Positions 12,793-15,665 of a stretch of DNA of 42,991 bases are shown here, piece after piece. A program made the position numbers and the translations under genes. Below the pieces are notes generated by a model. That model worked only from the letters and a program-made list of their open reading frames with translations. It searched no databases and was not told the DNA's origin. This stretch comes from Ectothiorhodospiraceae bacterium. GTDB taxonomy: Bacteria > Pseudomonadota > Gammaproteobacteria > XJ16 > Halofilaceae. The stretch is taken from contig SLKC01000077.1 of NCBI GenBank assembly GCA_007134775.1, forward strand, positions 1-42,991. Direction: 5' to 3'. Positions within the stretch are counted from its first letter, which is position 1, and the number at the start of each line of letters is the position of its first letter.

Positions 12793-13632
12793 ATGGAATC
12801 ATCGATTGCGCTGGTCTGTACCGCGCCCGAACGCGAGCCGGAAGCGGCCGCCCTCGCAGATGGGTTCGGCCTGCGGCGGGAGGATCATCCACCGACACAC
12901 GGCGATCGACTCGCACTCGTGCTAACGGCCAACCGCCTCGAACTGCGGGCCGCTGGCCGCGCTGCGCCTGGCCCACTGGCAGTCGACTTCACCGCAGGAC
13001 GGCAGTATCACCGCGGGCGACGGGCAAGCATCCGCGATGAAGCGCTGGCGCGAGCGGCCGGGATCGGCCGCGGCTGGCGCCCCGAAGTGATCGACGCCAC
13101 GGCGGGATTGGGCAGAGACAGTTTCCTGCTGGCAAGCATGGGATGCTCGGTCACGGCCTGCGAACGCAACCCGGTCGTCGCCGCTCTACTGGCCGATGGC
13201 CTGGCCCGGGCGAAGTCGGCCGCCGCCACACGGGACATCGCTCGTCGCATCCATCTGCGGCACTGTGATGCGCTGGCGGTCCTGGCAGAGCGGGCGAGCG
13301 ATGTGATCCTGGTCGATCCGATGCACCCGCCACGGCGCAAGTCAGCGGCCGTCAAAAAGGAGATGCGGCTGCTCCAGCAGCTCGTGGGCGCAGACCCCGA
13401 CAGCACCGCGCTCCTGGCGGCAGCGCTGGGGGCGGCGCGCCATCGTGTTGTCGTCAAGCGCCCCGCCCGCGCAGAGCCATTGCCCGGCCCCGCCCCTTTT
13501 CACACCGTCAGCGGCCGCTCCACGCGGTTCGACGTGTATGCGGGTCACGCCGAAGGCGACGCAGGGGGCGGATCGGCGAATCCAGACGACAGACCCCAGG
13601 GGGGGACGCAAACGCGTCGGCCCCGGAGGTAG
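12793..13632 (+). CDS. rsmJ: 16S rRNA (guanine1516-N2)-methyltransferase
   Basis: RsmJ methylates N2 of G1516 in 16S rRNA using SAM. The 279-aa protein shows the family layout: an N-terminal lobe with LVLTANRLELRAAG, then VDFTAGRQYHRGR, the SAM-binding VIDATAGLGRDSFLLASMG, and the catalytic DPMHPPRRKSAAVKKEMRLL that corresponds to the family DPMYP-type motif. The ATG at 12793 begins MESSIALVCTAP and fits the family length; upstream in-frame sequence overlaps the divergent gene and is not conserved. The C-terminal 35 residues are Gly/Arg/Asp-rich and probably disordered. Confidence 0.92.
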   Translation: MESSIALVCTAPEREPEAAALADGFGLRREDHPPTHGDRLALVLTANRLELRAAGRAAPGPLAVDFTAGRQYHRGRRASIRDEALARAAGIGRGWRPEVIDATAGLGRDSFLLASMGCSVTACERNPVVAALLADGLARAKSAAATRDIARRIHLRHCDALAVLAERASDVILVDPMHPPRRKSAAVKKEMRLLQQLVGADPDSTALLAAALGAARHRVVVKRPARAEPLPGPAPFHTVSGRSTRFDVYAGHAEGDAGGGSANPDDRPQGGTQTRRPRR

Positions 13633-13649
13633 AGGGTCCCCCGGGGCCG
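13618..13649. terminator. hairpin between convergent rsmJ and usp genes
   Basis: CGGCCCCGG at 13618-13626 pairs perfectly with CCGGGGCCG at 13641-13649 around a 14-nt loop. It spans the rsmJ stop and lies between two convergent genes. There is no clear T-run, so termination is inferred from position and stem strength only. Confidence 0.45.
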
Positions 13650-13697
13650 ATCACTGATGCAGGTGCACGGCTATCTAGCGGGATACCCGCCAAACGC

Positions 13698-14183
13698 TCA
13701 CTTGACCGTGATAACGGAGCACTTCGCGAGATTCTGCACCTTGTAGGAGACGCTGCCGGCAAGCAGCCCCTTGAGCCCACCAAGGCCCCGCGAGCCCATG
13801 ACGATCAGGTCGGCATTCGCCTTGTCCGCGTTCTCGAGGATTTCCTCGGCCGCAATGCCACCGGTCTTGGCCTTCTCGATCTCTGTGGCCCCCTCGGCCT
13901 TGGCCGATTCTTCGGCCTTCTCGAGCAGCTTATCGGCGATGTCCTCAAGCACTTCCGGCGGCTCGGAGGGCTCGACGTAACCGGCGCCAACAGCCATCCC
14001 CGGCTCCGGCTTGCTCGGCTTGTCCGAGAGCTTGCGGATATCGTCGGGCAGACGCCCATGGAGGAGCACCTGCAGCAGATGCAGCTTCGCGCCATACTTT
14101 GCCGCAAGGTCGGCTGCGAGCTTGACCGCCTTGTCCGAATGCTTCGAGCCGTCAATCGGTACCAGGATATTCTTGACTTCCAT
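13698..14183 (-). CDS. universal stress protein, UspA family
   Basis: The 161-aa protein has the single-domain UspA fold: start MEVKNILVPIDGSKHSDKAV, middle IAAEEILENADKANADLIVMG, and the ATP-binding signature G-x2-G-x9-G-S in MGSRGLGGLKGLLAGSVS, so it is of the nucleotide-binding type. An insertion between strands 2 and 3 (SDKPSKPEPGMAVGAGYVEP) is shared in outline with the next Usp gene, so the pair probably arose by duplication. A good ribosome binding site (GGAG, 8 nt before ATG) is present. Such proteins support survival in stress and growth arrest; the trigger is not known here. Confidence 0.93.
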   Translation of the reverse strand: MEVKNILVPIDGSKHSDKAVKLAADLAAKYGAKLHLLQVLLHGRLPDDIRKLSDKPSKPEPGMAVGAGYVEPSEPPEVLEDIADKLLEKAEESAKAEGATEIEKAKTGGIAAEEILENADKANADLIVMGSRGLGGLKGLLAGSVSYKVQNLAKCSVITVK

Positions 14184-14231
14184 CAGTTATTCTCCTGCTC
14201 TTGTGTGTGAAATGGGAGAGCCGGACCACAA

Positions 14232-14260
14232 GATATGCGGACCGTCCCCGTAGCCGTCAA
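14232..14260 (-). promoter_or_regulatory. promoter candidate for the first usp gene
   Basis: On the minus strand TTGACG (14260-14255) is followed after 17 bp by CATATC (14237-14232). The -35 is good and the -10 is weak. An interrupted palindrome CCACGTGTCGTGG at 14261-14273 sits directly upstream of the -35 and could be an activator site. Confidence 0.35.
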
Positions 14261-14294
14261 CCACGTGTCGTGGTCTCCGGCCGCCCTCCCCGAT

Positions 14295-14765
14295 TCAGCG
14301 CACGGTAATCACGGTGCAATTCGCCATCGTCTGCACCTTGTGCGAAACGCTGCCGACGAGTAGGCCGGCCAGTGTACCCAAGCCCCGAGCACCCATCACG
14401 ATGCAATCGATGCCGTTGCGCTTGGCATATCCGAGGATCTGATGCGCCGCCGGGCCGATCTCCCAGGAGCCGTAGACGCGCTCGATACCGGCCCGCTCGG
14501 CCTTGCGTCGGGCATCGGCCACCAGGGCCTCGGCGACATCCTTGGCAATTTCCCGCTCATAGACGGGCGCCGCATTGGGTGAAGCCGACGCCGGCAGCGA
14601 CGGCCGATCCGACAAATAGCGCAGCTCCGGTGGCACTTCCCCCGCGCCCACAATATGCAGGACGTGGAGGTCAGCATCGTGGACTAGCGCGAGTTCGATC
14701 GCGCTGTGCAGCGCGCGCTCGGCATGTTGCGAGCCGTCCACCGGAACCAATATGCGATTGAACAT
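14295..14765 (-). CDS. universal stress protein, UspA family, behind an FNR-type box
   Basis: The 156-aa protein begins MFNRILVPVDGSQHAERALH and ends with the ATP-binding motif MGARGLGTLAGLLVGSVS (G-x2-G-x9-G-S). It resembles the neighbouring Usp, including the linker LSDRPSLPASASPNAAP between strands. A purine-rich GAGGGGGCTAGGG precedes the ATG. The upstream gap holds an FNR/ANR-like box (14883-14896), which suggests induction at low oxygen, as known for several Pseudomonas usp genes. The Usp call rests on motifs; the regulation is inference. Confidence 0.93.
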   Translation of the reverse strand: MFNRILVPVDGSQHAERALHSAIELALVHDADLHVLHIVGAGEVPPELRYLSDRPSLPASASPNAAPVYEREIAKDVAEALVADARRKAERAGIERVYGSWEIGPAAHQILGYAKRNGIDCIVMGARGLGTLAGLLVGSVSHKVQTMANCTVITVR

Positions 14766-14854
14766 CCCTAGCCCCCTCGTTCTTGCCGGCCGGTCGGCAT
14801 CTGCGAGATGGTGCTCCTCACCTGCCCCCGGATCAACACAATCAGCCCGTCATT

Positions 14855-14896
14855 ATGCTACCGCACGACTATCGCCCGGATGTTGACGCAGATCAA
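14855..14896 (-). promoter_or_regulatory. FNR/ANR-type promoter candidate for the second usp gene
   Basis: On the minus strand TTGATCTGCGTCAA (14896-14883) matches the FNR/ANR consensus TTGAT-N4-ATCAA at 9 of 10 fixed positions. Twenty-two bases downstream comes TAGCAT (14860-14855), overlapping CATAAT (14857-14852). A 22-bp gap places the box at about -41.5, the class II activation position, and there is no obvious -35. The site lies in the 165-bp gap between the usp and DUF3301 genes, which otherwise holds nothing I recognise. Confidence 0.55.
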
Positions 14897-14930
14897 GCAG
14901 CAGGACCAATCTCAGCGCACCCCAGCTTCA

Positions 14931-15281
14931 CTACGGGTCACGCGAGTCACCGAGACCCGGTACGGGCGAGGCAGGCGGGTGCTCCGCGGCATCGAGATGC
15001 ACATCCACCACACGGCGCCCTAGAAGGCGCGCGTAACCAGCCTGCCTCCCGTCTCCGGTCTGACTGAACTCGAAGTGGTAGAGCCGGGCGAGGCACAAGC
15101 CGCCCCCGCTATCACGCTGGACGCGCAATCGCCGCAAGACCACGCTGTCGTCGAGGAATTGCGCGCCGAAGGCACGGCATGCCCGCCGACACGCCCCGAC
15201 CGCGGCCTCCCGAGCGCGCATCGAGTCCCACCACCAGAGCAAGGCGAGTCCAAGCACCAAGAACGGCAGCAGTTGGCTCAT
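14931..15281 (-). CDS. DUF3301 family membrane-anchored protein
   Basis: The 116-aa protein begins MSQLLPFLVLGLALLWWWDS, a single N-terminal membrane segment. It continues REAAVGACRRACRAFGAQFLDDSVVLRRLRVQRDSGG, LCLARLYHFEFSQTGDGRQAGYARLLGRRVVDVHLD. The 'WWDSMRARE', 'LDDSV.LRRLR' and 'YHFEFS.TGD.R..GY' pattern is that of the DUF3301 family of gammaproteobacteria. Function is unknown. The last 20 residues are proline-rich. It is transcribed away from the DUF1244 gene, and on the same strand as the usp genes. Confidence 0.85.
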   Translation of the reverse strand: MSQLLPFLVLGLALLWWWDSMRAREAAVGACRRACRAFGAQFLDDSVVLRRLRVQRDSGGGLCLARLYHFEFSQTGDGRQAGYARLLGRRVVDVHLDAAEHPPASPVPGLGDSRDP

Positions 15282-15292
15282 GCCCCCCCGCG

Positions 15293-15321
15293 TCGAGAAT
15301 CGCTGTCTCCTCCCCTATAAT
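15293..15321 (+). promoter_or_regulatory. sigma70-type promoter candidate for the DUF1244-dehydrogenase operon
   Basis: A perfect TATAAT lies at 15316-15321, with TCGAGA (4 of 6) 17 bp upstream at 15293-15298. It is the best -10 hexamer in the window and lies about 75 bp before the first gene of the operon. Confidence 0.6.
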
Positions 15322-15398: not shown

Positions 15399-15665
15399 AT
15401 GGATGAAACGACCCGCGCCGCGATCGAAGCCGCGGCCTTTCGGCGCCTGGTTGAACACCTCCAGACGCACACCGAGGTCCAGAACATCGACCTGATGGAA
15501 CTCGCGGGCTTCTGCCGCAACTGCCTCGCCAAATGGTACAGCGCAGCCGCAGTGGAGCACGGTGTCGACATCGACTATGAGACCGCTCGCGAGGCGATCT
15601 ACGGCATGCCCTACGACGAGTGGAAGGCTCGGTACCAGACACCGCGCACGGGAGAAACGACATGA
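15399..15665 (+). CDS. DUF1244 family protein
   Basis: The protein of about 88 aa contains the DUF1244 signature: EAAAFRRLVEHLQTHTEVQN, IDLMELAGFCRNCLAKWY with two cysteines in FCRNC, and AREAIYGMPYDEWKARYQ at the C-terminus. The role of the family is unknown; it is small, helical and cytosolic. I chose the ATG at 15399 (MDETTR); a GTG directly before it at 15396 is equally placed relative to AGGGG. The stop overlaps the next gene start by 4 bp, so translation is coupled to the dehydrogenase. Confidence 0.88.
   Translation: MDETTRAAIEAAAFRRLVEHLQTHTEVQNIDLMELAGFCRNCLAKWYSAAAVEHGVDIDYETAREAIYGMPYDEWKARYQTPRTGETT

Follow-up and report, generated by a model that had tools for sequence, protein, structure and literature searches.

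A predicted class II FNR/ANR promoter ahead of two adjacent universal stress genes in an Ectothiorhodospiraceae bacterium

Why should only one of two neighboring universal stress protein (usp) genes be preceded by an FNR/ANR box? The window analyzed here, a stretch of 42,991 nucleotides (contig SLKC01000077.1), carries two usp genes in tandem, which we call uspA and uspB, with the box upstream of uspA. A preliminary description of this DNA read the box as part of a class II promoter and proposed that its presence before one gene only implies divided roles for the pair. The analysis presented here argues for the promoter and against the division of roles.

The box, its -10 element and the two usp genes

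The features of the locus, from the upstream neighbor to the promoter-distal gene, are as follows.

14931 to 15281, minus strand: DUF3301 gene, upstream synteny marker (PF11743, tblastn); ends 35 bp before the box
14883 to 14896, minus strand: FNR/ANR box TTGATCTGCGTCAA, 9 of 10 positions of TTGAT-N4-ATCAA, one position off
14860 to 14855, minus strand: -10 element TAGCAT, separated from the box by a spacer of exactly 22 nt
14848, minus strand: predicted +1, placed from the -41.5 geometry only (box center 14889.5)
83 nt, minus strand: predicted uspA leader, between the predicted +1 and uspA
14295 to 14765, minus strand: uspA, box-proximal universal stress protein of 156 aa (PF00582, 103 bits)
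14184 to 14294, minus strand: uspA-uspB spacer of 111 bp, with strongly folded RNA and a weak sigma70-like TTGACG-17-CATATC
13698 to 14183, minus strand: uspB, promoter-distal universal stress protein of 161 aa (PF00582, 106.5 bits)

Both proteins score above the PF00582 gathering score of 24. The Usp ATP-binding motif is G2xG9xG(S/T), and by eye it can be read as GARGLGTLAGLLVGS in uspA and GSRGLGGLKGLLAGS in uspB.

The strand of the box, its match to the consensus and the position of TAGCAT are exactly as the preliminary description gave them. The 22 nt between box and TAGCAT correspond to the class II layout (-41.5), and setting the box center at this distance gives 14848, in keeping with the start that had been predicted near there. 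How exceptional is such a box? The window contains a single copy of the relaxed form, TTGAYN4RTCAA, where 0.05 would be expected. When up to two mismatches to TTGATN4ATCAA are allowed, 16 matches are found against 5.8 expected, which makes looser matches no rarity; of the 16, the box at 14883-14896 alone has just one mismatch. The claim that just one of the two genes has a box also held, the best match before uspB reaching 5 of 10 positions (250 bp; 300 bp). A match with two mismatches at 14173-14186 was considered as a second box and rejected: sharing bases with the uspB start codon, it cannot be a class II site for that gene. Service to a gene on the right of the box was likewise rejected, as the DUF3301 gene on that side lies on the minus strand and ends before the box.

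Box spacing across the genus

Is the 22-nt spacing peculiar to this promoter? Three congeneric genomes were compared, the window's own (G000) and two others (G001 and G002). The relaxed box occurs 26 times in G000 versus 2 occurrences of the reversed pattern, and 24 versus 2 and 23 versus 3 times in the two congeners; two of the 26 appear to be double-counted through contig overlap (identical pairs on C11 and C119). All 73 boxes (26+24+23) were taken in both directions with no selection by gene, giving 146 flanks, of which 142 were used once short and repeated ones had been dropped. TANNNT stands at spacer 22 in 20 of these 142 flanks, the uspA promoter among them, and at spacer 21 in 11, whereas each of the 28 other spacers in the range from 8 to 37 has it once or not at all. 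With this peak, the spacing named by the preliminary description becomes a measurable rule in the genus, usable in the form box, 21-22 nt, TANNNT.

Genes adjoining the boxes in the genus include, by Pfam, those for HemN (the G001 copy), cytochrome bd subunit I (CydA), an MFS transporter, a multicopper oxidase/cupredoxin protein, an Fe-S protein and a CBS protein; others we take from their translations to be NnrS-, ccoN-, narK- and nirK-like. Many boxes fall within open frames of a simple gene caller, some of which are probably not genes. Two glyceraldehyde-3-phosphate dehydrogenase genes of G000 (on C138 and C139, the first identified by Pfam, the second by its translation) each lie behind TTGACCGGCGTCAA (L099:912-925 and L100:1351-1364), with TAGCTT exactly 22 nt on. 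Judged from this arrangement, FNR/ANR control of both looks possible.

Synteny and orthology of the usp genes

The window, G001 and G002 share one gene order: 2-hydroxyacid dehydrogenase, SAM methyltransferase, usp, box, DUF3301 and isocitrate-type dehydrogenase. It was read by Pfam on the window and G001 and by tblastn on both congeners. At the usp position there is a single gene in each congener versus two in the window, and in both congeners the box starts 77 bp before that gene. Conservation of the box in relatives, which had been proposed as a check, thus holds for the syntenic locus of each congener. G001 has GATCAT, a poor -10, at spacer 22. When the three upstream regions were aligned freely with MAFFT, the boxes did not fall into one column and little other likeness appeared, so the conserved place rests on synteny and on the box-anchored comparison.

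The surroundings vary in detail. In both congeners a YchJ-like gene (L119:1980-2477 and L139:1897-2394) separates DUF3301 from the box; the window has none at that place. A further neighbor, presumably mreD, was found in G001, and the G002 stretch ends short of it. By tblastn at E 1e-4, G002 has the small gene at 15400, whereas G001 gave no match.

Could the box be a chance match without function? Such palindromes did arise in 5 of 100 shuffles of the window, but the box stands at one intergenic place that is also boxed in both congeners, with a -10 at the spacing typical of the genus, and we find an accidental origin hardly credible.

Which of the two window genes corresponds to the single gene of the congeners? 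The latter shares 61% identity with uspB versus 39-44% with uspA (tblastn; alignment). A 12-row tree groups uspB with the congeners' single usp (94/94) and leaves uspA outside (84/89), both values falling just under the 95/80 mark; a 25-row tree settled neither the placement of uspB or uspA nor the origin of uspA. From these comparisons the single gene is likely the orthologue of the box-less uspB and not of uspA. Since the box stands before that gene, it is probably part of the uspB lineage. Most simply, the promoter would be an ancestral feature of this lineage, with uspA now sitting between it and uspB in this genome.

A candidate regulator

Which protein would read the box? FNR and ANR are marked by an N-terminal CxxCx5C cluster together with further Cys and by an ExxSR recognition helix. 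A Crp/Fnr-type protein of G000, L050 (on C132), has the CxxCx5C cluster CQDCSLRGLC, an ETVSR helix read from the translation, and further Cys at 121 and 132 of the open frame. Among NCBIfam models it scores best with Fnr NF008365, at 222.1 bits, just below that model's cut-off of 228 bits; the next model reaches 108 bits. Its best solved relative is the FNR-type regulator 5cvr. Close counterparts are present in both congeners (L048 and L051), and G002 has a second cluster-bearing protein, L058.

The same half-site might instead be read mainly by another Crp/Fnr protein, FixK-like or Dnr-like, in which case the signal would be an O2-sensing kinase or NO and not O2 sensed directly. G000 has nine PF13545 matches, seven of them above cut-off, and encodes FtrB-like proteins and a FixK-like protein, L054, so L050 is the likely rather than the certain regulator. 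Among the seven, however, L050 alone combines the CxxCx5C cluster with an ExxSR helix; L054, encoded near a response-regulator-like gene, lacks the Cys cluster and has ETLCR in place of the recognition motif. Boxes preceding cydA and hemN in the genus also speak against a different reader, which we consider unlikely. At L093:300-1630 (G000, C39), the gene for a FixK-like Crp/Fnr protein lies close to one resembling response regulators, a possible second pathway for the same half-site.

With the spacing rule of the genus, a regulator of FNR type and a syntenic box in both congeners, the site is very probably a class II FNR/ANR-activated promoter, as the preliminary description had it. At low oxygen, the FNR/ANR protein with its iron-sulphur cluster intact would dimerize, bind the box centered at -41.5 and recruit RNA polymerase to the TAGCAT -10, which has no -35. 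These steps of activation are established for FNR. Transcription would then start near 14848 and read uspA, most likely continuing into uspB as one mRNA.

One operon or divided control

Does the missing box set uspB apart? The proposal of divided roles finds no support in the comparison with the congeners, in which the likely orthologue of the box-less gene is itself box-bearing. The two genes also run in the same direction 111 bp apart, and no intrinsic terminator was found in 13500-15300, where 1.0 was expected by chance. If uspA lies between the ancestral promoter and uspB, the missing box is no sign of a separate role. More generally, scoring boxes gene by gene says little about function where a second copy stands between a promoter and the gene that it served.

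The spacer itself deserves attention. RNA from 14184-14297 folds to -50.9 kcal/mol (z -4.55), with 0 of 200 shuffles as good, and a looser look for promoters finds TTGACG-17-CATATC (5/6 and 3/6). Searched in the genus as a repeat element, the spacer DNA gave no significant second copy, the best E beyond itself being 0.053 over 27 bases. Because of the strong hairpin and the weak promoter match, uspB could have its own start. Only uspA would then be under FNR/ANR, and uspB, which has no box of its own, would be served by a constitutive promoter in the spacer. Against this stand the likely uspB orthologues, box-controlled in both congeners, the lack of a terminator and a stricter sigma70-type scan of 13500-15300 that returned 0 sites (0.4 expected by chance, hence weak evidence). 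We regard a separate uspB promoter as rather doubtful, a reading whose probability overlaps that of the preferred one. The preferred reading, a two-gene uspA-uspB operon under the box promoter, is probable: with no terminator or strict sigma70 site, and a folded spacer containing a loose promoter match, co-transcription is likely, not proven.

What might such an arrangement achieve? One could speculate that a diverged extra usp copy now separates an ancestral FNR/ANR promoter from its usp gene, giving a bicistronic anaerobic operon in which the strong folding of the spacer determines the proportion of two Usp proteins, which may form a mixed dimer; as a whole this scenario is decidedly improbable.

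Other usp genes within and outside the genus

Is the box confined to this locus? A second usp lineage, of 176 aa (G000 C144, G001 C27 and G002 C8), has retained both box and -10 throughout the three genomes; its boxes match at 10, 9 and 8 of 10 positions and are followed by TAAGCT, TAGGCT and TAGACT at spacer 22. The 149-aa lineage (C180/C18/C16) and the C8a/C4 lineage gave no match of at least 8 of 10. A usp census of the three genomes started from 33 match rows and, with domain pairs merged and the contig-edge fragment C58 left out, yielded 25 gene starts. All but one, at a contig end, were judged; one of these 24 is preceded by no more than 196 bp of sequence, and in at least two cases the match does not begin where the gene does (G002:C7 75595 and G001:C6 100572). 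A box match of at least 8 of 10 within 300 bp was found at 7 of the 24, five of them with [TC]ANNNT at spacer 22; the remaining two are G001:C14, with a perfect box but GATCAT, and G001:C17, with 8 of 10 and no -10. Given the layout kept in all three genomes by the 176-aa lineage and the share of boxed usp starts, it looks as though the genus has durably kept some usp genes under FNR/ANR control.

Outside the genus, 27 usp loci were sampled from a search matching 249 of 369 genomes; several are partial-domain matches whose upstream DNA may be coding. An exact box lies within 400 bp at 2 of the 27, with none for the reversed control, and two more loci have 9/10 matches at -302 and -322. The two with exact boxes, L161 and L171, belong to other families of the class and have CATGCT and TAGAGT at spacer 22. 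The closest homologue outside the genus, L153, is without a box. A wide distribution of the boxed pair was considered and rejected, as the 12 contig loci are all only remotely similar (at best 33% over the full length and 47% over residues 110-152).

Comparison with known systems

That FNR/ANR can place usp genes under oxygen control is well grounded in published work, and the locus described here is an ordinary case of it. The published cases support the link between anaerobic usp genes and FNR/ANR drawn in the preliminary description, although cited work describes usp genes up-regulated in anr mutants in a stringent-response-dependent manner, an observation at odds with simple activation as a universal rule (PMC8087004). 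In Burkholderia cenocepacia, the usp genes of the lxa locus and the uspA beside anr2 are reported to be raised at low oxygen, and uspA to be required for anoxic survival; the term 'anr box' is absent from the main text of that report (PMC9104464). Unlike the pair in the window, six usp genes are placed at one low-oxygen locus there (PMC9104464). Three usp genes of Dinoroseobacter shibae are reported to be activated by direct interaction with FnrL, in a regulator set that, unlike the one here, consists of FnrL plus three Dnr (PMC5398030).

For Pseudomonas aeruginosa, a review lists Anr-dependent uspK (PA3309), uspN (PA4352) and uspL/M/O (PMC8509486). As proposed here, several usp genes are induced there without oxygen via Anr, but they are separately numbered loci, with distinct uspK and uspN phenotypes, whereas the window has two adjacent genes on one strand and one box (PMC8509486). 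In Sphingopyxis granuli, uspA (SGRAN_3353) has an Fnr box at -41.5, so that a usp gene again stands behind a class II Fnr promoter, and ccoN and hemN appear in the same list of Fnr-box operons (PMC7713065). Unlike the arrangement here, that uspA is reported as monocistronic, in a strain with two fnr genes (PMC7713065). To this known theme of anaerobic usp genes under FNR/ANR, the present locus adds one well-supported promoter.
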